Source: Verrucomicrobiota bacterium
GTDB taxonomy: Bacteria > Verrucomicrobiota > Verrucomicrobiia > CAIQCK01
Direction of reading: 5' to 3'
NCBI GenBank assembly: GCA_026397915.1
Contig: JAPLTX010000047.1
Span: 124,001 to 188,000, forward strand
DNA: 64,000 bases
Part shown: piece after piece, positions 25,324-48,678 of the stretch
Layout: each line of letters begins with the position of its first letter
Numbering within the stretch: position 1 is the first letter of the stretch
The notes under the pieces: generated by a model
Database searches by the model: none
The model's input: the letters and a program-made list of their open reading frames with translations, nothing else
What the model was told of the DNA's origin: nothing
Program-made: the position numbers and the translations under genes

Positions 25324-25357
25324 GGGATTCAGTGACCTTGGTATTCTGGGATGTGCT

Positions 25358-28387: not shown

Positions 28388-31300
28388 TTAAGGAAGGCTT
28401 TGCGATAGTGTGCAATCGTCGTAGGTTACATGGCCTTCCTGATAAGGAGAGTGAATGGCCGTATCGAGAATGAAGCGGACTTGGGTTGTATGCGCGCCGG
28501 TGGTGAACCGCCTGATCAAATGCTGATAGGGGCCGGCGGTTCTGGTTTCGATCTTGGCGTGCTTATGGAGCACCTTGCCGGCGTCGTCGAGTTCCCAGAC
28601 TTCAAGACTGGCGGAATCTTTCGGGTCATGGCCGAAGCCTTTGCCGTGGAGGTCAACCGTTCGCACCCAGACCGACGCCGTGTAGGTTGTGTTGGGCGAA
28701 ACCTCGACATCCTGAGAGATCATCGTGTGGCCGCTGCCATCGGTGTGCGTGCGGATGGCACCGCTGCCGCTGTGAAACTCCGGCAGGCCCCACGCCGGAT
28801 GCCGGCCGTAGTCGCGTTCCTGCCAGATGTAGGATTTCACCGGCCCGGCGAACTGATACGTCCACCCTGCTTTGTCGTGCTGTGAGCCGCGCAGCATCGT
28901 TGCGCCGTGTTCTGTCTCCTCGAATCCAGGATTCAGCAGCAGGTTGCCTGTCGGTTCTAGCGCGGATGAAGAAACGGGCTGCGTTCCTTTGCCGCCGTCG
29001 CCGGGGCCGAGTTCGAGGGCTTGCACGAAGGCTTCGCCGCAAACGGGTTTTTCGCCGTCCATGACGCGAGCGCCCTTGAACCGGACCTCGATGATGCCGT
29101 TGCGCGGCGCGATGCCGTTGAAGACGAGGTCGGCGGCGCGATTCGGACCGCCGGCGGTGGCGGCGACATCCAATCGCTTCGCGACGATGTGGCCGTTGAT
29201 GCGGATGTCGAAGCAGTTCAGGCGCGTGTCGAAACCGCGCGTGGCGGCGAACTTCAGCCGCACGTGATACTTGCCCGGCCCGACCGTCGCGTTCACCCAG
29301 AATTCACGTCCGTGAACGCCGTAGCGATACAACTCAAGGTCCGATGTGCCGCTGATCGCATTGGTGGACGGCGTAGGCCACCATGAAGTAGCCACCGAGT
29401 CCGCGCCGTTGCCTGTGCGGGTGACAAACTCGGTGGCGGGCCGCCAACTCTGGCCTTGCGAGTCGCAGTAGTCGTTCCCGATCGTGCAGCCGAAGATCAT
29501 CCGCTGGGTCTCCACCGGCCCGGTGCCAGACGGAAAACCGTGCGCCTTGTTTGCGCTGGAGAACTGCACGGCCTCCAGGGCGACGCGGCTGCCCTTCGAA
29601 TACGGGTTGTGCTCGTCGCGCGGCACGATCTTCAGCGTGTGCCGGCCCTGCGGTAGGCCGTTCTTGTAGTAGAGCAACTGACGGCTTCGTGGTGTCGGGT
29701 TCCATGCGTCTATGTGAACCAATTGTTTCTGACCGTCGAGATACACATCGGCCAAACCGCCATCGGGCCCCACGCTCCCAATCAGGCGGACTTGATTGCC
29801 CTCGAACTCATGCACCAACGCCGCGCTCTCAATCTCCTGCTGTGGGTCGTCGCCGATGATGACGATTCTCTTCGCGCCGTCGTGGCGGATGGTGACGATC
29901 TCGTCGCCGTTGGGAAGTTGTTTCACTGTGTAGCCGTTGGCGTCGCTGTCTGTCCGGCGCTCCAGCTTCTTGCCGTCCGCCGCCACCGACCTTGGCAAAA
30001 ACGCAAGACGGAGCACCTCGGTGGTGTTGGCTGGGGCGTCGAAGGTGGTGTATTCGATCCGGCCATCGCCGTAATTCACTGAGTTCACCACGGCGGTCGA
30101 GCGGACGATGTGGTTCTCCCGGCTGGCACCAACCTCTTCCGGCAACCAGCCGATGCTGGCGAGCATGAACCGCAGCGGCAACGGATGCGCGATGTTGAAC
30201 CACGCGCCGTTGACGATGGCGCCGCCGTCTATGTTGTCCTCGGAGACGCCCGTCTCGTGGATGTCGTAGGTTTGCAGCACCATCTGGCGGTAGGCCAGTT
30301 CGCGCATCCAAGCGTCGCCTGTCTCCACGGCGTATTGCGCGAACGCAGGCGCGTGAATCATCGGGCTATACCAGAGCGAGCGCCCGCAGCATCCTGACGA
30401 TTCCGGATACGCCCAGGCGCCGCTGTAGACGTCGCCGTTGGAGGCGGGGCTGACGCTGGTGTGGTTGAAGAACAGCGTGAGGATGTTCCGCGCATCGTAG
30501 GCCCAGTTGGGAAACTCGGCCTTGTTGTCCAGGATGTATCGCACCACCTCGGAGGTGATGAGGCACGACTGGACCGGGTCTTCCCAGTCCCAGAAGTAGC
30601 GGCCCCAAGTGCCGTTCACCCACCACGCCGGCAGCAGCTTGTCGCGCAGGTAGTGCCGCCCCGCGTCGCGCGCAGCCACGATGGCGTTGGCCTTGCCCGT
30701 GTAGCCGAGCCGGATGACTTCATCGAGGAAGCGCGTGATCATCACAACGCCGGCCGTTTGTTTGTTACCGAGTTCCTTTTTCCCCCACTTCGCATCGTCG
30801 GGGTTGGCGTAGCGTGGCCACGGGTCGGCGCCCGCGGTGAGGTTGCATTTCGCGGCAAGGACGTCGGCCCAATGTTTCGCCGCCTCCAGCCAGCGCTTGT
30901 TGCTGCCGAGCTGATACGCGCGCAGCAGGCCCTCGCCGGTGGAGCCAATGATGTCGAGCTGGATCATCCCCGTCGGGTCGGCCTTACGGTAAGTCTTCCC
31001 CTTGGTCGGCACGCTGATGAACACACCGGGCCACGGGTGATCGTCCGCCGTCACGCAATGATCCAGCACGTAATCTGCCATGTAGGTGACGTGGGCGATG
31101 GCGGCCGGGTCGCCCGTATAGCGGTAGTAGTCCACGAACCCGTTGAGCACGCTGGTGGCGCGCTGGCCAAGGTCACCGTTGTGCCAGTCGGCCGTCGTCA
31201 GCGGCGTAATCGTGCCGTTGGTCGCGATCTTCCAGTGGCCGGTGAAGACGTAATGCGGATAAACGGCGATGGCATTGGTCGCCGTGGTCCACGGATAACG

Positions 31301-31483
31301 CTTCAGCGTTTCCGCTGCGATGCGCACGCGCAGATCGCACTGGCCGTTCAGTCCGCGATACCACGGCGCGATAACGCCGTGCGCGTCGTGGACGGTTTCG
31401 TGGCCGTAGTAGCGGTCCTGAACGGTGGCCGCCCAGACGGAAGAAACCAAAAAGCCAACGAGGATAGTCATCAGGTGTTTCAT
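28388..31483 (-). CDS. Large secreted six-hairpin glycosidase-like protein with malectin- and CBM-like domains
   Basis: A 1031-residue exported protein (signal MKHLMTILVGFLVSSVWAA). Residues about 30-480 are helical and barrel-like (PHYVFTGHWKIATNG, GMIQLDIIGSTGEGLLRAYQLG, GRYFWDWEDPVQSCL, YPESSGCCGRSLWYSPMIHAPAFA). A beta domain follows. A malectin-like segment around 680-840 (YRYGVHGREFWVNATVGPGKYHVRLKFA) and a CBM4/9-like jelly roll (NLLLNPGFEETEHG ... YDDCTLSQSLP) finish the protein. It is the last gene of the 15-gene run and overlaps the UroD-like gene by four nucleotides. Likely glycan-binding and cleaving; specificity unknown. Confidence 0.75.
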   Translation of the reverse strand: MKHLMTILVGFLVSSVWAATVQDRYYGHETVHDAHGVIAPWYRGLNGQCDLRVRIAAETLKRYPWTTATNAIAVYPHYVFTGHWKIATNGTITPLTTADWHNGDLGQRATSVLNGFVDYYRYTGDPAAIAHVTYMADYVLDHCVTADDHPWPGVFISVPTKGKTYRKADPTGMIQLDIIGSTGEGLLRAYQLGSNKRWLEAAKHWADVLAAKCNLTAGADPWPRYANPDDAKWGKKELGNKQTAGVVMITRFLDEVIRLGYTGKANAIVAARDAGRHYLRDKLLPAWWVNGTWGRYFWDWEDPVQSCLITSEVVRYILDNKAEFPNWAYDARNILTLFFNHTSVSPASNGDVYSGAWAYPESSGCCGRSLWYSPMIHAPAFAQYAVETGDAWMRELAYRQMVLQTYDIHETGVSEDNIDGGAIVNGAWFNIAHPLPLRFMLASIGWLPEEVGASRENHIVRSTAVVNSVNYGDGRIEYTTFDAPANTTEVLRLAFLPRSVAADGKKLERRTDSDANGYTVKQLPNGDEIVTIRHDGAKRIVIIGDDPQQEIESAALVHEFEGNQVRLIGSVGPDGGLADVYLDGQKQLVHIDAWNPTPRSRQLLYYKNGLPQGRHTLKIVPRDEHNPYSKGSRVALEAVQFSSANKAHGFPSGTGPVETQRMIFGCTIGNDYCDSQGQSWRPATEFVTRTGNGADSVATSWWPTPSTNAISGTSDLELYRYGVHGREFWVNATVGPGKYHVRLKFAATRGFDTRLNCFDIRINGHIVAKRLDVAATAGGPNRAADLVFNGIAPRNGIIEVRFKGARVMDGEKPVCGEAFVQALELGPGDGGKGTQPVSSSALEPTGNLLLNPGFEETEHGATMLRGSQHDKAGWTYQFAGPVKSYIWQERDYGRHPAWGLPEFHSGSGAIRTHTDGSGHTMISQDVEVSPNTTYTASVWVRTVDLHGKGFGHDPKDSASLEVWELDDAGKVLHKHAKIETRTAGPYQHLIRRFTTGAHTTQVRFILDTAIHSPYQEGHVTYDDCTLSQSLP

Positions 31484-32589
31484 TGTCGTAAACCAGCGCG
31501 GCGGCTGTAGCGGACAATGTCCTCTGCCGTCTGCACCAAATCTGCGGTTGCCCAGATGAACAACCGCGTTGGGTCCAGTGCGCCGCAGAGGACATCCAGT
31601 TCATGTTTCAGGTCGGCATCACCTCCGTGCCCTTCGCCATAATAAAGCTGGATGGATTTTCCGCCCGCTTGGATGCGTCGCAGGAGGTCGAGCCATTGCG
31701 ACGGCAACGGGTTGCCCGCGCCTTGAATCCACTGGATGCAGTCCAGTTGCTCCAACCGCAGCAGCAACGGCACATGCCGGACGGCTCCGGGGCCGTCGAG
31801 GTGATACAACGAATGGTCCGCATGGGCACAACATTCCAGGTTGTCCCGCCTGCAAAACGTCTCGAACATGGCCGGACTGATCATGCAACTAAAGTCATTC
31901 TGACCGACGCACAGAAAGCGATCCTTGCTCCAGCCCATGGTCCAGTTCGACGTGCCTTGTCCGGCGGGCAAGATGATCTCTGAAGCCGTATCCACGACAA
32001 ACTTCCACAAGTCGGTCATCTGCCGCATGGCGTGGTGGATGGCATCTGGATTGTTCGTGAAGTCCATGGCTAGATCTTCGGGACCGCGGATGGCGCTCAG
32101 GGCGTCAATGCCAGTGTGCAGATCGGGATAACCGGTCACCCATTTGCCCGCGCCGGCGCGAACCGACTCCCGCAGCAATTGCAAGTAGAGCCGCCACCAC
32201 TGGTTCTCCGGATCAATCCGCAGTTGCGGATGCTCCGCCCAATCCCGCACGAAAGGTTTGCACCAGGAAGTGTTCTGGCGCGGTCGGAGTTCAAGGTCTG
32301 CGCCGAGCCATGCGGCAAACTGATCCGGTCCCAGCCACGGACAGAAGACCGGCAACGCGTCGCCGGCGTAGTGAGTGCCGCCGAGGGCGCGCTCGGCCGC
32401 CGCCATCACATAATCCACGTTCGTCCACAGTTCATCTTCCGAGGCAGGCTCCGGCACAGGCTGCGAAGGCTTTGCTCCGGGCGCGGTCATCCACAGTAAC
32501 GGACCTTCCTCGAGTTCGCCTCTCCAGAACGCTTCGTTGCGCTGGAGCGCCAGGGACAGTTGCTTCTCTTCAATCCAAATGGTCTTCAC
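31480..32589 (-). CDS. UroD / corrinoid methyltransferase superfamily protein
   Basis: A 369-residue cytoplasmic TIM-barrel protein of the uroporphyrinogen decarboxylase superfamily. Late motifs YHLDGPGAVRHVPLLLRLEQLDCIQWIQGAG are typical of the non-haem branch, which includes corrinoid-dependent methyltransferases. In methylcobamide:CoM-type members the equivalent position is His-x-Cys; here it is His-Leu-Asp, so a Cys/His zinc site is not obvious. No dedicated corrinoid protein gene lies beside it. It sits between a secreted glycosidase-like protein and an amidohydrolase in a sugar-catabolic run, so a role in porphyrin synthesis is unlikely. Function not established. Confidence 0.72.
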   Translation of the reverse strand: MKTIWIEEKQLSLALQRNEAFWRGELEEGPLLWMTAPGAKPSQPVPEPASEDELWTNVDYVMAAAERALGGTHYAGDALPVFCPWLGPDQFAAWLGADLELRPRQNTSWCKPFVRDWAEHPQLRIDPENQWWRLYLQLLRESVRAGAGKWVTGYPDLHTGIDALSAIRGPEDLAMDFTNNPDAIHHAMRQMTDLWKFVVDTASEIILPAGQGTSNWTMGWSKDRFLCVGQNDFSCMISPAMFETFCRRDNLECCAHADHSLYHLDGPGAVRHVPLLLRLEQLDCIQWIQGAGNPLPSQWLDLLRRIQAGGKSIQLYYGEGHGGDADLKHELDVLCGALDPTRLFIWATADLVQTAEDIVRYSRRAGLRQ

Positions 32590-36497: not shown

Positions 36498-37649
36498 TCA
36501 GTTGGGATCAATCTTCACGACGGATGCGGTGCGATGCGATTCCAGCGCGGCGGTGAAAATCTTATGGTGCAGATGCGTCTCCTGCGGCGTGACGCAGCCG
36601 GCGAATTTCTTCAGCGGCTTGCCATGCGCCAACTCGAAAAGGAACGCGGCCCACATCTGGAGGATCGAGTCGCTGAAGCCAAACTGGAAGATGCCGCCGG
36701 TGATGCTCTTGAAGGCGGTCTCGTGGCCGGTCTGGATTTGCGTCCAGGCTTGTTCGCCGCCGTTGTAGTCGAGCACTTCGAGGATGTCGGCGCGAACGCT
36801 CGACCAGCGCACGGAGGTTTTCGTGCCGCTGATTTCGGTGAACCAATGGTTCTTCTGGCCCGGCGCGATGCGCTGGAGCTTGATGAACATCGGGAACGGC
36901 TCGCCGGTGGCGGGATCGAGCGTCTCGCAAAAGAGCGAGGCGTTGTCCCAGGTCTTGCAGGGCACGAGCCGGCCGGTGGCGTCGGGGCGTTGCTTGACGA
37001 TGTCGGAAAGAATGGCCCGGACGTTGCGGGGCGTCCAGCCGGCGCGGAGCGGCACGTGGAGCGCGTGCATGCCGAGGTCGCCCATCACGCCATACTCGCC
37101 GTTGAATTCGATCATCCGTTTCCAATTGATCGGCTTGCTCGGGTCGAGATCGCTGGAGTGCAGGAAGCCGGTGTTGACCTCGATGATGCGGCCGAGGGCG
37201 TTGCGCTCGATGAGTTCGCAAAGCCGCTGCATCGCCGGAAAGAAAGGCGACTCGGAGGAGCAGCGCACGAAGACGTCCGGGTGCTGGCGCGCGCAGGCGA
37301 GGATGGCGTCATTGGCCGCGCGGTCAATCCCGAACGGCTTCTCGCCCATGAGATGTTTGCCCGCGGCGATGGCGGCGCAATAGACCTCGCGGTGCAGGTG
37401 GTGGGGCAGGGCGACATAGACCGCCTCGACCCGCGGGTTCGCCAGCAACGCGCGGTAGTCGTCGGTGACTTGCGCGATGGTCGGGAAGTTTTGTTGATAC
37501 CACGGGTAGAGCGCGGGGACTTTGTCGCAGAGGACGACAATCTCCGGCCGCACGTCCATGTCGGGCAGGTGCGCCCAGCGGGCCGCCGCGCTCGCAAACT
37601 CGCGGCCCATCAAGCCGCCGCCGATAATTCCAAAGCGAATGGTTTTCAT
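36498..37649 (-). CDS. Cytoplasmic Gfo/Idh/MocA-family oxidoreductase
   Basis: A 383-residue NAD(P)-dependent dehydrogenase without a signal peptide. It starts [21 protein letters not shown] (Rossmann glycine motif) at the ATG at 37649, overlapping the alanine dehydrogenase stop. The catalytic motif EKP is intact in GKHLMGEKPFGID. A substrate-domain segment YGVMGDLGMHALHVPLRAGW contains the conserved Asp/His pair. It is the intracellular member among five Gfo/Idh proteins in the window and is flanked by kinase and alanine dehydrogenase genes. Confidence 0.92.
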   Translation of the reverse strand: MKTIRFGIIGGGLMGREFASAAARWAHLPDMDVRPEIVVLCDKVPALYPWYQQNFPTIAQVTDDYRALLANPRVEAVYVALPHHLHREVYCAAIAAGKHLMGEKPFGIDRAANDAILACARQHPDVFVRCSSESPFFPAMQRLCELIERNALGRIIEVNTGFLHSSDLDPSKPINWKRMIEFNGEYGVMGDLGMHALHVPLRAGWTPRNVRAILSDIVKQRPDATGRLVPCKTWDNASLFCETLDPATGEPFPMFIKLQRIAPGQKNHWFTEISGTKTSVRWSSVRADILEVLDYNGGEQAWTQIQTGHETAFKSITGGIFQFGFSDSILQMWAAFLFELAHGKPLKKFAGCVTPQETHLHHKIFTAALESHRTASVVKIDPN

Positions 37650-38764
37650 AGTTTTACCGCGGCGTCGAAAGGATTGGGCGAGCACGGCAGGCCGAGGGCT
37701 TCGGCGACAGCGGGATAAACGATTCTGCCCTGGTAGGTGTTCAGGCCGAGGCGCAGGTCGGGCATCAGTTCGAGCGCGCGGTCGGCGCCGAGGTTGGCGA
37801 GCTTGACGGCGTAGGGCATCGTGGCGTTGGTGAGCGCCTGCGTGGCGGTGCGGGCGTAAGCGCCGGGCATGTTGGTGACGCAGTAGTGAACGACGTCGTG
37901 CTCGACGTAGATCGGGTCGTCGTGCGTGGTCGGGCGCGAGCTTTCGGCGCAGCCGCCTTGGTCAATCGCGATGTCCACGAACACCGAGCCGGGTTTCATC
38001 TGGCTGAGCATGTCGCGGCGGATGAGCTTGGGCGCAGCCGCGCCGGGCACGAGCACCGCGCCGATCAAGAGGTCCACCGTGGCCAGACGCTCGATGAGAT
38101 TTTGCTCGTTGGAGTAGAGCGTGTGCGCCGAGTGATCGAACGTAATGTCTAGGAAGCGCATTCGCTCCAGATCCACATCGAGGATGGTGACATTGGCACC
38201 GAGACCAACAGCCACGCGGCCCGCGTTGATGCCGGACGTGCCGCCACCGAGCACCAGCACGTTGCCGGGCAGGACGCCGGGCACTCCGCCCAACAAGACT
38301 CCTTTTCCACCTTGTGCTTTGCTCAGGTAGTAGGAGCCGATTATGGCACTCATGCGCCCGGCGATTTCGCTCATCGGTTCGAGCAGCGGACGGCGGCGAC
38401 CGACTTCGACGGTTTCGTAGGCGATGCCGCAGGTGCGGCTTTCGAGAAGGCGGCGGGTCAGGGCCGGTTCGGCGGCAAGGTGCAGGTAGGTGAAAAGCAC
38501 GAGGTCGGGCCGCAGGAAGCGATACTCGTCGTGTTGCGGTTCCTTGACCTTGATGACCATTTCCGCAGCCCACGCGTCGGCGGCGGTCGGGGCGATGGTG
38601 GCGCCGGCCTGGCGGTAGATGTCGTCGGAGAAGCCGGAGCCGACGCCCGCGCCGGTTTCGACGAAGACTTCGTGCTTCTGCTGGACGAGCATGCGGACGC
38701 CGCCCGGCGTGCAGGAGACACGGTTCTCTTTGATCTTAATCTCTTTCGGGATTCCGATTTTCAT
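37646..38764 (-). CDS. ald: Alanine dehydrogenase
   Basis: Interconverts L-alanine and pyruvate plus ammonia with NAD. The 372-residue protein has the full family pattern: [73 protein letters not shown] (NAD site), [20 protein letters not shown] and [19 protein letters not shown]. Length matches Ald (about 370 aa). It overlaps the class III aminotransferase stop by four nucleotides, strongly suggesting the two work together as an alanine/pyruvate cycle. Confidence 0.96.
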
Positions 38765-40341
38765 TTTGATTCTTTCGCTTGGATTGCCGCTTCGAACCGC
38801 GCCAGGATGAAATCCACGACGGCGGGCGTGGCGATGAGTGGGATCTTGGTGAGCACGGCGGGCGGGCAGTCCTGTTTGTAGGTCTGCGTGCTGATGTCGA
38901 GGCCGCGCTCATTGAGGCGGCGGGCGAAGGCTTTTGCGGCGTCGAGTTCCTTGAAATAGAGCGTCGTCATGTGACGCTTGCCCTCGACGGCGGCGATTGT
39001 GTCCGGGTGCGCGGTGGCGAACTCGCGCATCCGGCCTTCGTAGTAATCGCCCACGGCGCGGGTGGCGCGGGCGTTCGCGCGCGCCCAACGCATGGTGATC
39101 AGATAGGCGAGTGAGGCGAGTTCCTCCTGGCCGTTCGTCACGAGTGCGCCGAACTGCGGCATGCAATCCATCGCGGCGCTGAAGATCAAACGCGACGCGG
39201 GATATTCGCCACCGGGAAACCCTTTGCCGACCGCCACGAACGACGGCGTGAGGCCCCATTCGCGGAACATGAGCAAATCGTGGTGCCACATGCAGGACTG
39301 GATTTCGTCCACCACCGTCGGCACGTCGTGCTGGCGGCAGAGGGCGTAGGCGCGTTGGAGGAACTCGCGCGACAACAGACGGCCGCCGTAGTTCATCATC
39401 ACAATCTCGTGGAAGAAGCACGCGATCTTGTGCCCGTCGCGTTCCCACTTCGCGAACGCGGCTTCGAGATCAGCGATGCTGTTGGGCCGGATCGGGCAGA
39501 CGCGGCAGAGGCCCGCCTTCTCGATCCCGGCGCAAAACTCCGGCCACATGCCGCGCGCGGCCTGAATCAGAATCGTCGTGCCGTGGTAGTTGGCCTGAAG
39601 CCCGCCATCGTCGTTGCCCATCACGAGGATGACGGGAGTGCGCCCGCGGTATTTCGGTTCGGGGTAACCCGGCTCGATCCGGTAGAAGCGGGCGAGAATC
39701 ATCTTCAGCGCCGCCTCGGCCGCGAGACTGCCGGTTTCGAGATTCAGCACGCGGTTGCAGACATACGGGTCCTGGCTGGCGAGGACTTTCGCCAAACCCG
39801 CCGCATCCTCGGGCGCGAGTCCGTTGGCAGCGCAGACCAGTTGTTCTTCGAGCAGCCGGGTGATCTGACCGCGGGTGTTGTTGTGCGTTGCGTTTGGGAT
39901 GCCCAGTTGCCGCGCGCGCTCCAGCAACGCGTAGCCGGGAAACCCGTGTCCGAGCGGGGCGTGGTAATGCTCGCTCTTGGAAATCAAATACAACCGCCCA
40001 TCTTCGCCGACCCGAAACAGCCCCAGCGCGCTCAGCGGCGCCATGCCGGGTTTGGTGGCGGCATCAAACGTCTTTGTTGAAGCGCCGCGAACCGGCGCGC
40101 CCGTCTGCGGCCCGGCCACGCGCTCGCCGACTTGCTTCAGCAGCGCGTGTTGGCGCGCCATGAACTCCGCTGGCAGAAAATCAACCTGCTCGCGGGCGAG
40201 CGCGGCCAGTGTGGCGGCGTCTTCGCCGGTCAGCGCGGCGCGCGCGCGGCAGGAAGCCTCGACGCGTTCGCGCCCGATCAAGTCGGCGAGCGACACGTTG
40301 ACGGAATTGAAATCCAAGTTGGAATCAGATTTGTTTGTCAT
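38761..40341 (-). CDS. Class III PLP aminotransferase
   Basis: A 526-residue fold-type I aminotransferase, longer than the usual 430-460 aa because of an N-terminal extension of about 80 residues. PLP motifs: DDGGLQANYHGTT, VVDEIQSCMWH (cofactor aspartate), FVAVGKGFPGGEYPAS (Schiff-base lysine). It has unusual cysteine-rich wording LCRVCPIRPNS. Class III members move amino groups from terminal amines or amino sugars, commonly to pyruvate. The overlapping alanine dehydrogenase gene could recycle the alanine. Substrate unknown. Confidence 0.88.
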   Translation of the reverse strand: MTNKSDSNLDFNSVNVSLADLIGRERVEASCRARAALTGEDAATLAALAREQVDFLPAEFMARQHALLKQVGERVAGPQTGAPVRGASTKTFDAATKPGMAPLSALGLFRVGEDGRLYLISKSEHYHAPLGHGFPGYALLERARQLGIPNATHNNTRGQITRLLEEQLVCAANGLAPEDAAGLAKVLASQDPYVCNRVLNLETGSLAAEAALKMILARFYRIEPGYPEPKYRGRTPVILVMGNDDGGLQANYHGTTILIQAARGMWPEFCAGIEKAGLCRVCPIRPNSIADLEAAFAKWERDGHKIACFFHEIVMMNYGGRLLSREFLQRAYALCRQHDVPTVVDEIQSCMWHHDLLMFREWGLTPSFVAVGKGFPGGEYPASRLIFSAAMDCMPQFGALVTNGQEELASLAYLITMRWARANARATRAVGDYYEGRMREFATAHPDTIAAVEGKRHMTTLYFKELDAAKAFARRLNERGLDISTQTYKQDCPPAVLTKIPLIATPAVVDFILARFEAAIQAKESK

Positions 40342-40344
40342 ATC

Positions 40345-41958
40345 TCAGAGTCCTTTGGCTGGTCCGAAAAACTGGAAGTAAAACAGGTAGGCATACAACG
40401 CGACGACCGCGCCCGCGAAAATCGCCCACCACAGGAACAGGCTGCGCCAGCCGCCATACTTCAGGCGTTCCGCCGCCGGCAGCGGTGCCATTGTCGGCGA
40501 CCAGATGATACCTGCGAGTTTCTCCGGCGACGGCGCGCGCGTGAAGAGCGAGACGACCACCATGAGCGCCATGCAGGAGAGCCACACGACGAAAGTGCGG
40601 TTCAGCCAGTTGTCGAACGGACGCAGCAGCGCGACGTGCTTGAACAGCACGTGCTCCACGAACGCCGTGAAGGGGAAGCGGAACCACAACACAAATGGCG
40701 CCGCCGCCGCCGTGGCCCGCTTCCACATCACGCCGACCAGGAACAGCGAGGCAATCGGCGCCGCCACCCACGCGCCGACGTTTTGGATCGCGATGAAGAC
40801 GCCCATCTGGCGCTTCGTGAACCAGACCGCCAGCAACGTCGCGGTGAGCAGGATCAGGAACGCGCTCCAGCGTCCCACGGCGACCATGTGATGGTCGTTC
40901 TTGCCTTTTCCAAGGAACGGGCGATACAAATCCATCGTGAACACCGTGCTGCAGGAGTTCAGCACCGAGCTGATGTGTGAGAGCATGCCGCTGGCGAGCG
41001 CCGCCATCACGATCCCGCTCAAGCCGACGGGCAGCAGTTCGCGCACGAGTTTCGGGAAGGCCAGGTCCTTGTCCGCCAGGCCCGGATACAGCCGGAACGC
41101 GATGATGCCGGGAATCACGACCAGCAACGGCAGGAGGATTTTCATGAAGCCGGCGAAAACGACGCCCATGCGCGCATCCCATTCGCTGCGCGCGCCGAGG
41201 CATCGCTGCACGATGAACTGGTTGGTGCAGTTATACCAGATGCCCACGGAGAGGAACAAAGTCCACACGCCCAACCACGGGTATTCGGGATCGGTGATCG
41301 GGTAGGCGATCTTGAACTTTTCCGGCGCGGCGTGCATGAGCGCGGTCAGTCCGCCGACTTTCACCAGACCCAGGACAGCCACCATCAAGCCGCCGGCCAT
41401 CATCACGACGAACTGGAGGAAGTCCGTCCACGCCACTGACCGCAGTCCGCCGTAGATGGTGTAGCTGCCGGCGAGCAACGCGAGCGCGACGATGGTGACG
41501 GTTTCGTTCACGTCAAACATGCCGCGCATCGCCTTCGCCCCCGCGAGCATCACGACCGCCATTTGCGCGACGATCCAGAGCACGAGGCAGCAGACGGCGA
41601 AGAAGTAGCGGCAGTGCGCGTTGTAGCGGCGCTCCAGAAACTCCGGCATCGTGTAAAGGCCGCCGCGGATGTAGAAGGGCAGGAAAATCCAGATCAACGC
41701 GGAGAAGGTGATGACGTTGCCCCATTCCCACTGCGCCACGACGAAGCCCACCGCGTAGGCGATGCCCACCATGCCGATGAAATGCTCCGTGCTGATGTTC
41801 GCGGCGATGATCGAGCCACCGATGGCATACCAAGGCAGACCCTCGCCCGCCAGAAAGTATTCCCGCGCGTTGGCCGTGTGCCGCCGGGCGACCGCCAACC
41901 CGATGACGACGTTCAGCAGGAGATACAACGCGAAGAGCGCAAAGTTCAATATCTGCAT
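40345..41958 (-). CDS. Sodium/solute symporter (SSS family)
   Basis: A 537-residue inner-membrane transporter with about 14 hydrophobic segments. Family motifs include YFLAGEGLPWYAIGGSIIAANISTEHFIG in the first helices, TIYGGLRSVAWTDFLQ, and SGMLSHISSVLNSCSTVFTMDLYRP with the serine pair that forms the Na2 site. It resembles the SGLT branch that imports sugars. It begins 32 nt after the upstream oxidoreductase and ends 3 nt before the aminotransferase, making it the likely importer for the locus. Confidence 0.92.
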   Translation of the reverse strand: MQILNFALFALYLLLNVVIGLAVARRHTANAREYFLAGEGLPWYAIGGSIIAANISTEHFIGMVGIAYAVGFVVAQWEWGNVITFSALIWIFLPFYIRGGLYTMPEFLERRYNAHCRYFFAVCCLVLWIVAQMAVVMLAGAKAMRGMFDVNETVTIVALALLAGSYTIYGGLRSVAWTDFLQFVVMMAGGLMVAVLGLVKVGGLTALMHAAPEKFKIAYPITDPEYPWLGVWTLFLSVGIWYNCTNQFIVQRCLGARSEWDARMGVVFAGFMKILLPLLVVIPGIIAFRLYPGLADKDLAFPKLVRELLPVGLSGIVMAALASGMLSHISSVLNSCSTVFTMDLYRPFLGKGKNDHHMVAVGRWSAFLILLTATLLAVWFTKRQMGVFIAIQNVGAWVAAPIASLFLVGVMWKRATAAAAPFVLWFRFPFTAFVEHVLFKHVALLRPFDNWLNRTFVVWLSCMALMVVVSLFTRAPSPEKLAGIIWSPTMAPLPAAERLKYGGWRSLFLWWAIFAGAVVALYAYLFYFQFFGPAKGL

Positions 41959-41990: not shown

Positions 41991-43190
41991 CTACAATTTG
42001 TATTGTGGGACTTTCAGCAACTCGCCGTCCTTGAGGGCGGACTGATGCGCCACGATGCCGGCAACGCTCATGTTCAGCGCCGCGACGACGTCCACCAGCG
42101 GCTGGCGGTCTTGCAGAATCGCCGTGATGAACTCGTTCGTCAGTTGGCCGTGCGAGCCACCGTGGCCGCCGGGCTGCACGCCGGGCGGCAGCGGCGGACG
42201 CTCCAACGACGGCAGCTTCTTTTCGAGGCCGGCATACTTCTCATAGAAAGAGCCTCGCTGCCCGCGAATCCGGCCCATTTCCCCACCGGCACCGGGCGTG
42301 TCCCAACTCACCGCCATGCGCGCCATCCCGCCTTCGCTTGTGCGGAACAGCGCGGTCTCCGTGCCGAACGGATTCTTGTAGCGATTGTTCGCCGCTTGCA
42401 GGTGCTTGACCACGCTCGGCATGCCCATGCACGACACCTCGGTGAAACTCCCGCCAGTCACGCCCACGAAGTAGGCGTTGGAGTGCGTCGGATAAAACTG
42501 TGGCGGCAGGCCGACGCGCCAGTCCTTGTAGGAAGGCAGCGGCCCGTCCATGTAGTGATAGTATTCGCCTTCCGCATAGACCAGTTTGCCCAAACCGCCG
42601 GCCTTGTAAATCTGCCGCATCGCGTGGAGGTCGGCGTGAAAATACGATGTCTCGAACATCATGTATTTCTTGCCACTCGACTTGACGGCTTGGAGGAGCG
42701 GCTCGGCATCATCTACCGAGCCAAAGACCGCCGGCACAGCCGTGGCGACGTGCTTGCCGTGTTTCAGCACCTCGATGCAATGCCGCGCGTGACTCGGCGC
42801 GTCGGTCGCCACGAAGACCGCCTCGATGCTGTCGTCCTTCACCATCTCTTCGAGCGACGGATACGTCTTGCCGCAACGGCACGCCTTCGCCAGTCCGTCG
42901 CGGCGTTCGGGAATGAGATCGCTCACGGCCACGATCTGGACGTTCGGATGATCCTGAAAACCAAAGCTCGCGCCGAACTTGCACAGCCCGTAACCGGCGA
43001 TGCCCACGCGAATCTTGCGGTCGGACACCGGCTTCCATCCTTTGGAGGCGTTGGGGTCGGCGGCGGTCTTCTCAAAGCCGGGAATGACCTTCTCCGCGGC
43101 GTGAACAGACGCATTCAGCCCCAGCGCGGCGGCGCCGAGGCCGATGGTCTGTAAGAACGAACGGCGAGTCGTGGTGACGGATGTTTTCAT
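41991..43190 (-). CDS. Tat-exported Gfo/Idh/MocA-like protein lacking the EKP lysine
   Basis: A 399-residue exported protein. The ATG at 43190 starts a Tat signal (TTRRSFLQTIGLGAAALGL). The Rossmann region is IRVGIAGYGLCKFGASFGF. Where related enzymes have EKP, this one reads GKHVATAVPAVFGSVDD, so the usual catalytic/cofactor lysine is replaced by Ala-Val-Pro. The C-terminal half keeps THSNAYFVGVTGGSFTEVSCMG, GGHGGSHGQLTNEFI and family length. It may be a non-redox or differently acting member. Confidence 0.88.
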   Translation of the reverse strand: MKTSVTTTRRSFLQTIGLGAAALGLNASVHAAEKVIPGFEKTAADPNASKGWKPVSDRKIRVGIAGYGLCKFGASFGFQDHPNVQIVAVSDLIPERRDGLAKACRCGKTYPSLEEMVKDDSIEAVFVATDAPSHARHCIEVLKHGKHVATAVPAVFGSVDDAEPLLQAVKSSGKKYMMFETSYFHADLHAMRQIYKAGGLGKLVYAEGEYYHYMDGPLPSYKDWRVGLPPQFYPTHSNAYFVGVTGGSFTEVSCMGMPSVVKHLQAANNRYKNPFGTETALFRTSEGGMARMAVSWDTPGAGGEMGRIRGQRGSFYEKYAGLEKKLPSLERPPLPPGVQPGGHGGSHGQLTNEFITAILQDRQPLVDVVAALNMSVAGIVAHQSALKDGELLKVPQYKL

Positions 43191-43277
43191 GGGTTGGTTC
43201 CTTGAGTGTGGATGTTGCATTTGCTTCGTGGTTAAAGGGGTGAAATTGGATGCATTGTTTGCTGCCAGCGGCAGGCG

Positions 43278-44339
43278 CTAGAATTCGTTGAAGACGCGCG
43301 CGGGCTTGCCCGTGTCGGCGGATTCCCACGCGGCGGCGGCGACGGCGCAGGCACGCGCGCCGTCGAGCACGTTCGGGCTGGGTTCGCGGTCGTGGTCGAG
43401 GCATTCCTGGAAATGGCGCATGTAGCGGATCACCGTCGCGCCGTGGCCATAAACGCTTGTGTCGCGCTCAGGCTCGAAGTGCAGCGTCTGCGCTTTGTCC
43501 GGCGCGGGCGTGTCGTGAACGATCTGTAATCGGCCGGGTTTGTTGTCGGTGAACTCCGCGACGGCCGTGCCGCGCGTGCCGTAGAGCGCAAGCTGCATCA
43601 TCGGCAGCGGCGGCTCGACGACGTCGTAGAGGCCTTTGACCTGCGCGATGACGCCGTTGGCAAACTTGAGGTTCAGGAAGAAAAGGTTCCGCAGCGGATA
43701 GGCCGGCGTCAGTTTTCCTTTCGCCGCGTAGCAATGCACCTCGGCCACGTCGCCGAGGAAGCAGCGCAGGATGTCCACCGGATGCGTCACGCCGCCATAC
43801 ATGAGGTCCTGCGGCATCTTCAGCCGCCACGGCGTGAAGTCATATACCGGCCGCATGTCGTGGATGTAAAACGCCTCGGCGGCCATCATCTCGCCGAGGT
43901 CGCCGTCGTCCGCGAACTTTCGCAGCGCCGCAAATTGACGATCGAAGCGCATCGTCTGACCAACGAGAAATGTTCGCTTGTTGCGCCGCACGGCCGCGAC
44001 CACAGCTTTCGCTTGCTCCAGACTGGTCACCATCGGTTTGGTGCAGATGACGTGCTTGCCCGCGTCGAGCGCGGCGATGCAATGCTCGGCGTGCAGCGCG
44101 TCGGGCGAATAGACCGCCACCACATCCACGTCGGGCCGGCGCACCAGTTCGCGATAGTCGGTCGTCGTGAACGGACCCCCGGGCTGCTTCGCGTAAGGCT
44201 CCAGTTCTTCGCGCAGTCGCGCGCACGCCGCGACGAGCCGGTAGCGCAGGTCGGACACGCCCGCGAGCAGTGTCATCGTGCTGCCCATGTTCCGCGGGTT
44301 TATGCCGATGACACCGAGGCCGATGGGTTTTGCGCTCAT
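43278..44339 (-). CDS. Gfo/Idh/MocA-family oxidoreductase
   Basis: A 353-residue NAD(P)-dependent dehydrogenase, starting MSAKPIGLGVIGINPRNMG at the ATG at 44339; no signal peptide. The conserved motif appears as TKP in GKHVICTKPMVTSLEQA, keeping the lysine. A conserved GGVTHPVDILRCFLGDV stretch gives the substrate-domain histidine. The longer open frame to 44492 lacks family similarity. It lies 10 nt downstream of the 44350 TIM-barrel gene. Probably oxidises a sugar or sugar derivative. Confidence 0.9.
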   Translation of the reverse strand: MSAKPIGLGVIGINPRNMGSTMTLLAGVSDLRYRLVAACARLREELEPYAKQPGGPFTTTDYRELVRRPDVDVVAVYSPDALHAEHCIAALDAGKHVICTKPMVTSLEQAKAVVAAVRRNKRTFLVGQTMRFDRQFAALRKFADDGDLGEMMAAEAFYIHDMRPVYDFTPWRLKMPQDLMYGGVTHPVDILRCFLGDVAEVHCYAAKGKLTPAYPLRNLFFLNLKFANGVIAQVKGLYDVVEPPLPMMQLALYGTRGTAVAEFTDNKPGRLQIVHDTPAPDKAQTLHFEPERDTSVYGHGATVIRYMRHFQECLDHDREPSPNVLDGARACAVAAAAWESADTGKPARVFNEF

Positions 44340-44349
44340 GTGAGTTCTC

Positions 44350-45261
44350 CTATCGTTGCGCGTTGTTTGCCGCTGCGGCCAGTTGCGCGGAGATTGTTTT
44401 CCACGCGGCCATTGAGCGGGCGAGGATGTCGCGGGCATCGCCCTTGATGCTGACGCATTGCAACCCGATGGGGCCTCGATAACCCGCCGCAATGAACGGC
44501 CTCAGGAATCCGGCCACGTCGTAGGCGCCGCGGTCCAACGTGTCGTAGGAACCGAGTTCCATCGTCTCCTTCGTTCCTTCCGGCGAGGTCCCGTTGATGG
44601 TGACCAGAAAGAGGTGAGGCATCGCGTCGCGGACCAGCGACTCCAGGTTGCCGTGCGGATCGGTGCGGCGCCAATGAAACAGGTTGAAACAGACGCCCAG
44701 GTTTTCTCGGCCGCATTGTTTGGCGATGCGCACCGCGTGATCCACCCGCTCGCACCAAACGTTCACGTGCGGATAGATGGCCAGACGCACGCCGTAACCG
44801 CGGGCGAAGTCGGCCAGCTCGCGGCCCAACTCGACCGCCCGCACATCGCCTGCGGGCGATGATGGCGGGTGGGTCTTGCTTGTGAATTGAATCAGCAGCA
44901 AAGTCTTCCGGCCCTTTAACTGTTGGATTGCCTCCTTCAAACTCGCAGGGCATGTCCCGCCCGCATCAACCGGGATGTTGTAGGGCTGCACCGCCGCCGC
45001 GAACATCTCCAAACCTTCCGCGCCCAGCGCGCGGCGCGCTTCGTTCATACCGGCGAGCGTCCCCAAGTAAAGCGCGCCGTCATAGCCCAACTCCTTCAGC
45101 AGCTTGGCCTGCGTTTCTCGCGACGCGGAAATCTTCGGATCGCGCTCGAAGTTCATGGCGAAGAAAGGATTCGCCAAGCCCCTTCGCGCCACCTCGGCCG
45201 CTGGTGACGTTCCGCAGCCGCCCGCAAGTATGAGGGCCAAGACGATGTGTTTCGCTCTCAT
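44350..45261 (-). CDS. Exported xylose-isomerase-like TIM barrel with altered metal ligands
   Basis: A 303-residue protein with an N-terminal signal that may be lipoprotein-like (LILAGGCGTSPAAE). The remainder follows the sugar phosphate isomerase/epimerase (AP endonuclease 2) barrel. Positions that normally give Glu, Asp, His and Glu metal ligands read IYPHVN, CFNLFHW, TINGTS and GLQCVS, so the canonical site is largely substituted. It overlaps nothing but is only 1 nt from the 45263 gene, a canonical paralogue, suggesting a division of labour. It could bind a different metal or act as a lyase; unknown. Confidence 0.8.
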   Translation of the reverse strand: MRAKHIVLALILAGGCGTSPAAEVARRGLANPFFAMNFERDPKISASRETQAKLLKELGYDGALYLGTLAGMNEARRALGAEGLEMFAAAVQPYNIPVDAGGTCPASLKEAIQQLKGRKTLLLIQFTSKTHPPSSPAGDVRAVELGRELADFARGYGVRLAIYPHVNVWCERVDHAVRIAKQCGRENLGVCFNLFHWRRTDPHGNLESLVRDAMPHLFLVTINGTSPEGTKETMELGSYDTLDRGAYDVAGFLRPFIAAGYRGPIGLQCVSIKGDARDILARSMAAWKTISAQLAAAANNAQR

Positions 45262-45262
45262 G

Positions 45263-46153
45263 TCAGTCTTCCAATCCGAGATTGTGCATGAAGCGATACG
45301 ACGCGGCGATGCCTTCATCAATGAACTCCGGCGTCGGGTCGGTCGTGCCGGGGCCGTGGAATTGGATTTCCAGGCTGAACGGCCCGCGGTAGCCGACGCG
45401 GCGGAAGATGGCGGCGAGCGCCTTGAAGTTGACCTCGCCCTCGCCGAGGGGCGGGAAGTCCCAGTTGGCCTTGCCGCCGCGGTGGTCCTTGATGTGGACG
45501 TGGAAGATGCGGTCGCGAAGTTCTTTCTCGCACGATTCCAGGTCCGCGACGGGATCGAGGCCGGAGTAGAACCGCACGTTGCCGGCGTCGTAGTTAAGGC
45601 CGAGATTTGGCCGGCCGAGCTTGTTGCACAGCGCGAGTGTGGCCACGGCGGTTTCCGTCAGACCCGCGTGGCTTTCGAGGCCGATCTTGATCTTGCGCTT
45701 CTCGGCATAACCAAGCAACGCGTCGAACTCGCGATAGAATCTCTCGACCTCCTTTTGATCGGAGGTCACACCGATGCCCGTGTTGACGATCTCGACGCCG
45801 AGATGGCTGGCGAGATCAATGCGGCTGCGCAACCGCACGAAGCCTTCGCGCGCGATGTCCGTGCCGGGTGGGAGTTTCGGCATCTGCTCGATGTCCGCGC
45901 GTTTGCCCATAAGCGGCCAGCCCAGGTCCACATGGCCCGCGATGCTGGCGATGCGCAACCCGGAACGCTCGACGAGTTTCGCCAGCCGGTCCATGTCGCC
46001 CGCGCTCATCGCCTCCGGCACGATGTGCTCGCAGTAGGCGGAGATGCAGGCGACTTCGATGGCGCGGAAGCCCGATTTGGCGATGCCTTCCAGCGCGCGT
46101 TCCAACGATTGCTGCCGATACGTCACAGTGCCACAGACCAGTCTCGTGTTCAT
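45263..46153 (-). CDS. Sugar phosphate isomerase/epimerase family protein (canonical metal site)
   Basis: A 296-residue cytoplasmic TIM barrel. The start MNTRLVCGTVTYRQQSLE at 46153 replaces a longer frame with no similarity. Metal-ligand positions are intact: Glu in KIGLESHAGL, Asp in GLNYDAGNV, His in IFHVHIKDHRGG and Glu in FSLEIQFHG. The family includes isomerases, epimerases, dehydratases and, in keto-glycoside pathways, lyases. Its placement with several Gfo/Idh dehydrogenases fits oxidised-sugar metabolism. Exact reaction unknown. Confidence 0.88.
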   Translation of the reverse strand: MNTRLVCGTVTYRQQSLERALEGIAKSGFRAIEVACISAYCEHIVPEAMSAGDMDRLAKLVERSGLRIASIAGHVDLGWPLMGKRADIEQMPKLPPGTDIAREGFVRLRSRIDLASHLGVEIVNTGIGVTSDQKEVERFYREFDALLGYAEKRKIKIGLESHAGLTETAVATLALCNKLGRPNLGLNYDAGNVRFYSGLDPVADLESCEKELRDRIFHVHIKDHRGGKANWDFPPLGEGEVNFKALAAIFRRVGYRGPFSLEIQFHGPGTTDPTPEFIDEGIAASYRFMHNLGLED

Positions 46154-46172
46154 GATGCTCCTTTGTTGTTGT

Positions 46173-47312
46173 CTAACGAAAAACCTGAAAGATCGCCCGC
46201 GCGCCGTCCACGATGCCGTTGAAGAAGACGCTCTTGCCATCGGGTGCGAAGCGGGCCATGTCTTCCGTCCGCAGTTTGCTCGTCACGCGTTTGCAGAGGC
46301 GCTCCTTGCGATATTTGCCGCCGCCCTCCAGATGATAAAGGTTGATGTAGCCATCGCTCCAGTTGCCATCGCCAACCAGCGAGTGACCGTCGGGCGAGAC
46401 ACAGAAATGGAAGTTCCACTCCTGTGGGGGAAGAACCTGCTCCGTCTTCCGAGTGCGGCGGTGCCACCGCCAGTAGGCCCAGGGCGGGCCTTCGCCGAAA
46501 TCGTAATAGACGCAGTTGCCATCGGGCGACCAGATATGATGATGACCGCCTTCCACCGCGCATTCGCTGCCGGTGATGAGGCCATCGGTCCGCATGAGCC
46601 AGATGCCGCCGCCGTCCCGCTCAGCGGCGCTGTAGCGGATGTAGTTGAAAAGCGTTGGATCGGTGGGTGAGCACTGCAAATGGTCTGGGAACGTGCGGTT
46701 CCAGTAGAAGTCCTTTCGCTCCCCGGTCTCCAGGTCAATGGTGAAGAAAGTGTATTTCAGGTTCAGGCGCGCGAGCTTGGCCACCCACCCCGGCTGCCCG
46801 CGGAGCTTCCGGCTTTCCTCGGTCGTTTCCATATAACCGGCCACGACGTAGCGACCGTCGGCGGTGGTGTCCGTGTTTCCACCGTCACCAGCAGGGCGAT
46901 CCGTCAACCGTCGAAGCTTCCCCTTGGGCACGCTCAGTAGGTGATAGGCATCGGCCGATAAGACGAGCGCCTCATTGCGCCGGGCAACCACGCCGGCGAG
47001 GCCGCCCTGACCCGTGTGCGTTAGCCGGGAGATTGTTTCCGTGCGAAGATCAAAGGCGTAGATGTCCGTCCCCGCGTCGTTGCTTCCCGTGAAACACATC
47101 CAGCGGCCGTCCGCCGTGAACGCGCGCACGTGGTGATAGGCGACGTAAGCGTGCGTCATGGAGGGAGGCGTGATGCGGCGCACGCGGCGACCGGTTTCTT
47201 CGTCGCGCCATTCCTTGAGCGCGCTGGCTTCTCCAAAGACATTCCTCCGAAGTCCCAGTCCCGCGACGATGAGGCCCGTGCTTTTTAGAAACGCTCGCCT
47301 GCTCGAATTCAA
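46173..47312 (-). CDS. Oligogalacturonate lyase-like (PL22) beta-propeller, Tat signal
   Basis: A 379-residue protein with a twin-arginine leader (SSRRAFLKSTGLIVAGLGL). Blade repeats of a seven-bladed propeller are visible (AFTADGRWMCFTGSND, ISRLTHTGQG, DTTADGRYVVAGY, IWSPDGNCVYYDF, FCVSPDGHSLVGD, RFAPDGKSVFFNG). The EGGHHHIW and EWNFHFCVS histidines sit where PL22 enzymes bind a divalent metal. PL22 cleaves unsaturated digalacturonate. Many relatives in PVC bacteria are annotated this way without proof, so pectin activity is possible, not shown. Confidence 0.8.
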   Translation of the reverse strand: MNSSRRAFLKSTGLIVAGLGLRRNVFGEASALKEWRDEETGRRVRRITPPSMTHAYVAYHHVRAFTADGRWMCFTGSNDAGTDIYAFDLRTETISRLTHTGQGGLAGVVARRNEALVLSADAYHLLSVPKGKLRRLTDRPAGDGGNTDTTADGRYVVAGYMETTEESRKLRGQPGWVAKLARLNLKYTFFTIDLETGERKDFYWNRTFPDHLQCSPTDPTLFNYIRYSAAERDGGGIWLMRTDGLITGSECAVEGGHHHIWSPDGNCVYYDFGEGPPWAYWRWHRRTRKTEQVLPPQEWNFHFCVSPDGHSLVGDGNWSDGYINLYHLEGGGKYRKERLCKRVTSKLRTEDMARFAPDGKSVFFNGIVDGARAIFQVFR

Positions 47313-47343
47313 TTCGGTCTCCTGCGCTCAGCCGTTAAGCGCC

Positions 47344-48678
47344 CTACCACGCGACCGTGTTTCCCGGCACGGCCACCGGATACTTGCCGTCCTTGTCGGG
47401 CATGACCGGCGGATCGGCGTCGAGAGCATACTTGGCTGGCGAAAGACTCACTTTGGAATTGAGGGCCGCATCCCACGTGACCTCCTTGCCGGAGTAAAGG
47501 GCCATCCGTCCCATGATCGCGCTCATGGCGCTGGTCGCCGCGTAGTCGCCCTCGAAGAACGGCTGGCCAGCATGAATGGCGGCGAAGAGCCGGTCGTGCT
47601 GCATTTGGTAGGCATTGCCGGCCTTCTGGTTGCCTCTCCCCAGTTCCACCAAGCCGCCACCGACGGAGATTTCTCCCTTCGTTCCCAACGCGAAGAGATT
47701 GACCTGCGTGAAGCAGCCCGGAATCTGGCGCGCGAAAACCAAATGGCGGCAACCGTTGGCGAACTCGTATTCCACCACGCCGTGGTCAAAGATTTGTCCA
47801 GTGCCCGGGCCGTTGCGAACCTGGCGTCCGCCCAAACCGTGAGCTTTGATCGGGCACGCGTCGGCGACCCAGTTGCCCACGTCCACCGCGTGGACAGCCT
47901 GCTCGACGAAGTGATCTCCGGAGAGCCACGTGAAATACAGCCAGTTGCGAATCTGATATTCCATCTCCGTTTGCTCAGGAGTCTTGGAACGGCCGCTAAC
48001 AATGCCGCCCATCAAATAGTAGCTGCGGATCATCCGCACCTGGCCGATCTGACCGTCGCGAATCTGTTGGATACACCCCCGGCAGGAATCCTGATGGCGC
48101 CGCTGAAATCCCACCGCCACCGCCAGCTTCTTCTTCCGCGCCTCCTCGTTGGCGGCCATGACCGCACGCACGCCCGGTCCATCCACGGCCACCGGCTTCT
48201 CCATATATACATGCTTCCCCGCCGCCACGGCCGCCGCGTAGTGGAGCGGGCGAAAGTGAGGAACCGTGGTGAGAATGACCATGTCCACGCCGCACTCGAT
48301 CGCTTTCCGGTAGGCATCGAATCCGGTGAACCGCCGCTCCGGTGGCACATCTATCTTTCCGCGAATCGCCTCGTTCTTCAGCAGGTGGCCGAGACTGGTT
48401 TCGATGCGGTCGGCGAACAGATCGGCCATGGCCACCAGCTTGACCGGGCCGGCCGTGCTCAACGCCTGGCTGGCAGCGCCGGTGCCCCGCCCGCCGCAAC
48501 CAATAAATGCCAGTCGGATCATGTCGCTCCCGGCGGCGTGTGCCGACCGGGCGATGGGCAAACCAGCGGCGAACGTTGCCGCGCCGGCCAAGGCACCGGT
48601 CAATCCAAGGAAACTTCGGCGTGAGTGCAGGCTCGGGTTGGGGGAGTCGGATTGGCTGTGAGGTGAATTGGGATTCAT
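47344..48678 (-). CDS. Tat-exported Gfo/Idh/MocA-family oxidoreductase
   Basis: A 444-residue protein starting at the ATG at 48678 (another at 48693). A Tat leader contains SRRSFLGLTGALAGAATFAAG. Rossmann motif RLAFIGCGGRGTG, intact EKP in GKHVYMEKPVAVDG, and a substrate domain with WLSGDHFVEQAVHAVDVGNW. It is the first gene of the fifteen-gene minus-strand run and is divergent from the AraC-type regulator at 48767. Confidence 0.92.
   Translation of the reverse strand: MNPNSPHSQSDSPNPSLHSRRSFLGLTGALAGAATFAAGLPIARSAHAAGSDMIRLAFIGCGGRGTGAASQALSTAGPVKLVAMADLFADRIETSLGHLLKNEAIRGKIDVPPERRFTGFDAYRKAIECGVDMVILTTVPHFRPLHYAAAVAAGKHVYMEKPVAVDGPGVRAVMAANEEARKKKLAVAVGFQRRHQDSCRGCIQQIRDGQIGQVRMIRSYYLMGGIVSGRSKTPEQTEMEYQIRNWLYFTWLSGDHFVEQAVHAVDVGNWVADACPIKAHGLGGRQVRNGPGTGQIFDHGVVEYEFANGCRHLVFARQIPGCFTQVNLFALGTKGEISVGGGLVELGRGNQKAGNAYQMQHDRLFAAIHAGQPFFEGDYAATSAMSAIMGRMALYSGKEVTWDAALNSKVSLSPAKYALDADPPVMPDKDGKYPVAVPGNTVAW

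Follow-up and report, generated by a model that had tools for sequence, protein, structure and literature searches.

The six contiguous minus-strand genes at positions 41991-48678 of a 64,000-nucleotide stretch from a Verrucomicrobiota bacterium (assembly GCA_026397915.1, contig JAPLTX010000047.1, positions 124,001 to 188,000; this whole stretch is called the window below) were analyzed together with their relatives in other genomes. Their sequences suggest, with a chance that we put slightly short of even, that the interval is the front end of a two-compartment glycoside catabolic operon working through 3-keto sugars. That glycosides can be cleaved oxidatively, without a hydrolase, has entered carbohydrate biology only recently. 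Genomes such as this one (6.17 Mb in 62 contigs) hold more than 100 genes for Gfo/Idh oxidoreductases and barrel genes by the dozen, whose annotation goes no further than the fold. An earlier note on this DNA had described three Gfo/Idh proteins, two of them with twin-arginine translocation (Tat) signals, two xylose-isomerase-like barrels and a PL22-like propeller, all contiguous and adjoined by an importer. Pfam and the signals confirmed this arrangement: three Gfo/Idh proteins scored above the PF01408 cut-off and two proteins matched PF01261. The propeller proved to have a Tat-type signal as well, and the genes continue past the interval. The six are the first of a 15-gene minus-strand run, from 48678 to 28388, that extends eight genes beyond the symporter with intergenic gaps of -4 to 87 bases and is probably a sugar-degradation operon. 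The coordinates of these minus-strand genes are those with reassigned starts, and the front genes and the importer are as follows.

47344..48678, minus strand: Gfo1, Gfo/Idh with Tat-type export signal (RRSFLG) and EKP lysine; PF01408, 27.7 bits
46173..47312, minus strand: PL22-like propeller with Tat-type RR signal (RRAFLK); PF14583, 43.1 bits against a cut-off of 30
45263..46153, minus strand: TIM1, PF01261 barrel with no signal, predicted cytoplasmic, full metal site; 116 bits
44350..45261, minus strand: TIM2, PF01261 barrel with N-terminal signal-like segment and no metal ligands; Pfam and alignment
43278..44339, minus strand: Gfo2, Gfo/Idh with no signal, predicted cytoplasmic, TKP lysine; Pfam, PDB match to DgpA
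41991..43190, minus strand: Gfo3, GH109-like Gfo/Idh with Tat signal (RRSFLQ) and no EKP lysine; Pfam and alignment
40345..41958, minus strand: sodium:solute symporter (SSF), putative importer; PF00474, 221.8 bits, and TIGR00813, 290.8 bits

Active sites of the two barrels

When aligned, TIM1 has the full set of active-site residues, E-x-H, D, H-x-K and E. The metal ligands reported for the C-glycoside deglycosidase (CGD) are Glu147, Asp179, His269, Lys271 and Glu305, with His149 as the base (PMC8563793), and those reported for AtOGE are His132, Asp163, His189 and Glu233 with the catalytic His134, the first ligand there being a histidine (PMC10628242). Compared with these residues, TIM1 is a PF01261 barrel with a Mn site and a catalytic histidine and, judged from the alignment, keeps all the active-site positions of the Mn-dependent 3-keto-glycoside eliminases. 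TIM1 was also the most constrained of the four genes shared with a genome of another genus (G006), with 98.6% identity and a ratio of nonsynonymous to synonymous substitution rates (dN/dS) of 0.035. The NCBIfam matches of TIM1 included epimerases, IolO (39.6 bits) and IolE (32.6 bits), the two Iol matches being far under their cut-offs. No TIM1 relative was seen among the viral contigs searched. One further relative (locus L087, 78% identity) has a stop in frame, and this locus was omitted from the TIM1 alignment for its stop codons; immediately upstream of it lie two tandem DUF3830-like genes (277-1244), the first of which was confirmed by Pfam.

At the ligand positions on strands 5-8 TIM2 has Y, a gap, T, N and Q, and only the base histidine is retained; the corresponding motifs are Y-x-H, T-x-N and Q. 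The metal ligands were absent from all 17 rows of the TIM2-family alignment, TIM2 included, and the ligand positions were likewise unmatched when 19 family members were aligned by profile with IolI, using what we take to be the metal-ligand numbering of that protein. With the ligands missing across the aligned family, TIM2 was rejected as a standard metal isomerase. A dN/dS of 0.20 argues that this family is not decaying. In 82 matches from 80 database loci no variation was seen at the Y, at either histidine or at the N of N-L-x-H; the Q of these matches had been preselected through the search pattern. These 80 loci are the best of 345 and mostly from Planctomycetota, and at least four of them (L131, L203, L204 and L210) come from genomes that are also in our set of 286 genomes of the class.

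A link between this family and 3-keto sugars comes from gene fusions. In 31 of the 80 loci, which do not represent independent fusion events (examples are L139, L143, L151 and L195), a PF06439 domain was found in one reading frame with the TIM2-family barrel, as counted with a custom profile that missed at least one fusion found by Pfam (L159). Pfam confirmed the fusion in all five sequences sent and in L112 (4316-5848). Since PF06439 includes the 3-ketotrehalose hydrolase BT2157 (PMC9007349), the fusions tie the TIM2 family to 3-keto sugars. In a narrow search of the literature for this fusion, no paper turned up that names the two domains. The domain order is reversed in L195, and in L104 (3893-5986) a TIM2-type barrel is fused instead to a fungal-type glucuronyl-esterase domain (PF22244).

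Gfo/Idh genes near members of the TIM2 family were counted as well. Among the class genomes, 22 of 32 TIM2-family genes had a Gfo/Idh gene on the same strand within 2.5 kb and 16 had one within 300 bases, while three adjoined PF06439 as detected with a single-sequence query that missed the L112 fusion. In the genome studied here all four TIM2-family members have a Gfo/Idh gene within 4 kb, versus 15 of the 64 other barrels, and 46 of the 80 database loci have one within 2.5 kb, a count for which there is no random control. Among the loci listed, the closest TIM2 relative from outside the phylum is in a Rhodopirellula metagenome-assembled genome (58%), where its neighbors are a GH29 fucosidase, a fucose-isomerase-like protein, an FGGY kinase and an amidohydrolase, echoing the isomerase, kinase and amidohydrolase of the window.

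Gfo/Idh proteins and the propeller

Gfo1, Gfo2 and Gfo4, a fourth Gfo/Idh protein further along the run, have the catalytic lysine, and all of their NCBIfam scores were under cut-off. The EKP of Gfo1 is at residue 190 of the long open reading frame, and the Bacteroides protein BT2158, described as a periplasmic glycoside 3-dehydrogenase, is a precedent for exported oxidation (PMC11300592). The best PDB match of Gfo2 was DgpA (7xr9, 79.4 bits).

In Gfo3 the dehydrogenase EKP is replaced by AVPA, as it is in all 23 aligned members, and Gfo3 was rejected as an ordinary 3-dehydrogenase because this lysine is missing. A profile alignment with the GH109 structure 6t2b placed Y210-x-H212, W224-R225 and Y233-P-T-H236 of Gfo3 on the YIH, WR and YPTH of that enzyme. 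These positions (Y210, H212, W224, R225 and Y233-H236) are invariant, with H212 and H236 found in 23 of 23 members. GH109 enzymes are reported to carry out C3 oxidation dependent on nicotinamide adenine dinucleotide (NAD), elimination, water addition and reduction within one protein, and the H225A substitution, which lies in YPTH, abolishes activity (PMC6521355). The predicted model of Gfo3 has a mean predicted local distance difference test score of 86.2, and VIA-align ranked two GH109 structures first (Z 33.9 and 32.9). The C-terminal domain of GH109 (PF21252) was found in none of the 23 members at E values up to 1, and nothing in the whole genome scored above its cut-off. Given this failure and an identity to GH109 of about 20%, filing Gfo3 in GH109 was rejected; its mechanism may nevertheless be that of GH109. 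Relatives of Gfo3 in 12 other loci had no other window gene nearby and no conserved partner, which would suit a self-sufficient enzyme.

Two families open to testing emerge: a barrel without metal ligands that gene fusion connects with 3-keto-disaccharide hydrolases, and a GH109-like family with Tat signals. Both, provided that they are active, would help explain how sugar bonds are opened in Verrucomicrobiota and Planctomycetota, each of which is rich in such genes. A broader proposal, which is tentative and in our judgment somewhat unlikely, is that the PF01261 barrels without metal ligands (Y-x-H, N-L-x-H, Q), a widespread family whose window member has an export signal and whose relatives are often fused to PF06439, are unrecognized metal-free 3-keto-sugar enzymes, acting as eliminases or isomerases and here splitting a four-step oxidative deglycosylation between periplasm and cytoplasm, with Tat-exported GH109-like glycosidases outside GH109 as a second new group.

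The propeller passes the PL22 model and matches the oligogalacturonate lyases of PDB entries 3pe7 and 3c5m. However, no H-x-H, which we take to be the metal-binding motif in the C-terminal part of PL22, was found past residue 300, a part that remained unaligned to solved PL22 structures. Its lyase activity is therefore doubtful.

Clustering and comparison with related genomes

The genome has 122 PF01408, 68 PF01261 and 38 PF06439 places, and pairs of these are accordingly common in it. Clusters were defined by chaining Gfo/Idh and barrel places no more than 4 kb apart, and only one cluster in the genome, that of the window, held at least three Gfo/Idh and at least two barrel places, a composition seen in five of 1000 random placements. 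This random-placement null is lenient, as it ignores operon structure and contig ends and as Gfo/Idh genes cluster among themselves: 55 of the 122 have another within 4 kb, against an expectation of 17.7. Chance clustering of the interval genes is unlikely.

Downstream of the symporter the run continues with genes that we call the back end. These, and the regulator on the opposite strand, are:

38761..40341, minus strand: class-III aminotransferase, where the back-end module begins; PF00202, synteny
37646..38764, minus strand: alanine dehydrogenase; TIGR00518, 508.5 bits, above cut-off
36498..37649, minus strand: Gfo4, fourth Gfo/Idh, with EKP lysine; PF01408, 53.8 bits
35018..36496, minus strand: FGGY sugar kinase; PF00370, 101.4 bits
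33630..35021, minus strand: AraA-like isomerase; PF11762, 51.7 bits, PF24856, 43.8 bits, PF02610, 31.2 bits
32586..33623, minus strand: Amidohydro_2 protein; PF04909, 48.6 bits
31480..32589, minus strand: conserved 369-amino-acid protein with no match in the Pfam scan
28388..31483, minus strand: exported-looking malectin-domain protein of 1031 amino acids, end of the run; PF11721, 35.3 bits
48767..49615, plus strand: divergent AraC-type regulator, its type judged from sequence with no domain scan

In a sister species of the same genus (G002) the gene order is AraC, Gfo3, the homolog of the gene at 31480, malectin protein, SSF, aminotransferase, alanine dehydrogenase, Gfo4, FGGY, AraA-like and amidohydrolase, and the AraC-type regulator adjoining this operon is kept at 89.6%. 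A DNA alignment showed that the G002 locus (L050) matches window positions 49604-48581 and then, 20 bases on, positions 43104-41993, producing a 5.5-kb presence/absence difference (window 48581-43104 versus L050 12225-12245). The ends of this difference fall in the Tat-signal stretches of Gfo1 and Gfo3, and the Gfo3 of G002 starts with a Gfo1-type signal, making it an in-frame hybrid. Because most Gfo3 relatives bear a signal like that of the window, a deletion in G002 is a simpler reading than an insertion in the window genome.

The more distant G006 holds TIM1, TIM2, Gfo2 and Gfo3 together, the last three at 88, 90 and 91% identity, and the dN/dS values of these four genes between the window and G006 (0.035-0.20; the genes scored do not include alanine dehydrogenase) indicate purifying selection. 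The back end is found without the front in three other genomes (G048, G160 and G032), where the aminotransferase, FGGY kinase and AraA-like isomerase occur together; alanine dehydrogenase joins them in G048 and G160, Gfo4 in G048, and the amidohydrolase in G160 and, at 25% identity, in G032. The aminotransferase and alanine dehydrogenase (37646-40341) are conserved as a pair in G002, G048 and G160. Of the 286 class genomes, the own genome included, five had aminotransferase matches (E of at most 1e-60) and three had TIM1 matches (E of at most 1e-30).

A two-compartment model and its alternatives

Pathways made up of two oxidoreductases and two barrels, proceeding by oxidation, elimination, hydration and reduction, have been described (PMC7676230, PMC10628242). 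The levoglucosan genes LgdA-LgdB1-LgdB2-LgdC resemble the window in having two Gfo/Idh proteins and two PF01261 barrels. Mn is reported to make no difference to elimination by LgdB1 but to stimulate LgdB2 (PMC7676230), a behavior that maps onto the metal-less TIM2 and the metal-competent TIM1. Unlike that system, the window has signals on one Gfo/Idh and one barrel, contains the GH109-like Gfo3, and matches the levoglucosan dehydrogenase model far under cut-off. The Agrobacterium GlycDH/AtOGE operon, as it is described, also has two oxidoreductases and two barrels, and TIM1 shares metal-site positions and the catalytic histidine with it, but GlycDH is a flavoenzyme and TIM2 lacks the metal site. 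With DgpABC/CGD the window shares the E-x-H, D, H-x-K and E of TIM1, as well as the relationship of Gfo2 to DgpA, its best solved relative. CGD, in contrast, is built as a heteromer that includes a small beta-subunit; the analysis, in which no search was aimed at such subunits by name, noted none at the window and found nothing pointing to C-glycoside cleavage. The resemblance to Bacteroides BT2157/BT2158 lies in an exported Gfo/Idh and in TIM2 relatives fused to BT2157-type PF06439 domains. The window differs in having no PF06439 gene, and Gfo1 falls far under the BT2158 family cut-off. Gfo3 is like GH109 in its Y-x-H and WR...YPTH residues, its missing EKP lysine and its top VIA-align structures, and unlike it in failing the C-terminal Pfam model. 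The TIM2 model matches the fold of YcjR-type 3-keto-glucoside epimerases about as well as that of many other barrels, and the metal ligands are missing from the TIM2 family.

The gene content, the active-site residues, the family-level fusion of TIM2 relatives to PF06439 and the purifying selection are all observed, and around them we propose a model of which each catalytic step, the order of steps and the substrate class are predictions. Given the export signals, from which the compartments of the enzymes are predicted, the most economical model would place oxidation and elimination outside the cell and hydration and reduction inside, with import between them. Exported Gfo1 would oxidize C3 of the glycoside, and exported TIM2 would then expel the aglycone or process the 3-keto sugar through its conserved histidine. 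The product would be imported by the SSF symporter, hydrated or subjected to elimination by the cytoplasmic, metal-competent TIM1, and its ketone reduced by the cytoplasmic Gfo2, after which the AraA-like isomerase and FGGY kinase would pass the sugar to metabolism. Exported Gfo3 would be an independent GH109-like redox glycosidase.

A number of observations weigh against this model. Gfo1 scored 52.7 bits with the BT2158 family (NF058561) against a cut-off of 750, and better candidates for the 3-dehydrogenase are found elsewhere in the genome, where the same model exceeded 200 bits at 21 other places. None of the 38 PF06439 places of the genome is inside the window; clusters of PF06439 with Gfo/Idh are found elsewhere, in C14:128501-140000 (L122), C58:23001-32000 (L123) and C7:145501-156500 (L111), with a PF01261 barrel in addition in C14 and C7 but not in C58, and these three appear to be better candidates than the window for canonical 3-keto-glycoside cleavage. 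In G002 the back end is kept and Gfo1, the propeller, TIM1, TIM2 and Gfo2 are missing from the locus, and a search of that genome gave no TIM1 match. The E-x-H, D, H-x-K and E set of TIM1 may be present in epimerases and inosose dehydratases as well. The 14 of 80 TIM2 loci with a Gfo/Idh gene within 300 bases are within the random range (mean 8.8, maximum 16). For the Gfo3 model, levoglucosan dehydrogenase came near GH109 in VIA-align (Z 32.0), leaving GH109 a small lead, and Foldseek put ordinary dehydrogenases first. The model also gives no account of the cofactor recycling that exported NAD enzymes require, and has no role for the aminotransferase and alanine dehydrogenase pair.

We consider it unlikely that there is no common keto-sugar pathway at all and that the genes act separately on different sugars, with Gfo3 the sole bond-cleaving enzyme. 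The high background of 122 Gfo/Idh and 68 barrel places, the 12 other loci where Gfo3 relatives stand without window genes and the lack of five front genes from the otherwise syntenic G002 operon would all fit such a reading, but it has to be set against the uniqueness of the cluster in the genome and its rarity in random placements, the joint presence of TIM1-TIM2-Gfo2-Gfo3 in G006, and the fusion that links the TIM2 family to 3-keto enzymes. Another alternative takes its example from E. coli YcjQ-YcjR-YcjS, in that the Gfo/Idh proteins and barrels would interconvert intact glycosides through 3-keto forms, an epimerization, leaving cleavage to hydrolases or to Gfo3. The Ycj cluster is described as two dehydrogenases with one barrel epimerase (PMC11543891). 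In Foldseek the 3-keto-D-glucoside 4-epimerase YcjR (6wn6, E 6e-11) ranked second among the matches to the TIM2 model, and the TIM2 profile matched it weakly; epimerases are also among the NCBIfam matches of TIM1. Many other barrels scored about equally with YcjR in Foldseek, however, TIM2 is without metal ligands, and the fusion of its relatives to a 3-keto-disaccharide hydrolase points to bond cleavage. Epimerization is decidedly unlikely in our view.

We hold it to be less probable still that the run is an inositol or aminocyclitol (rhizopine-like) operon in which the Gfo/Idh proteins are cyclitol dehydrogenases, TIM1 serves as inosose dehydratase or isomerase, and removal of an amino group falls to the aminotransferase and alanine dehydrogenase. 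This reading gives a place to the alanine dehydrogenase that adjoins the aminotransferase and scores above its cut-off, and to the occurrence of part of the back end without barrels in G002, G048, G160 and G032. Also in its favor, the best NCBIfam match of Gfo2 was inositol 2-dehydrogenase (107 bits against a cut-off of 355) and TIM1 matched IolO and IolE, but all of these iol matches are far under cut-off. No further iol gene was seen in the 15-gene run, the AraA-like isomerase and FGGY kinase suit a sugar better, and the Rhodopirellula TIM2 relative lies beside fucosidase, fucose-isomerase-like and kinase genes. Returning to the 3-keto-sugar model, the proposal of the earlier note that glycosides are oxidized and then opened by elimination is partly supported for the interval. 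The composition of the known four-enzyme pathways, the full eliminase set of TIM1 and the PF06439 fusions of the TIM2 family speak for it, whereas the lack of the catalytic lysine in the GH109-like Gfo3, the lack of metal ligands in TIM2 and the distance of Gfo1 from BT2158 do not.

Two minor observations concern the surrounding genes. The 369-amino-acid protein at 31480-32589 is, judged by eye, uroporphyrinogen-decarboxylase-like in appearance, and downstream of the operon, at window positions 22162-25392, there is a GH116-type glycosidase gene (PF12215, PF04685).

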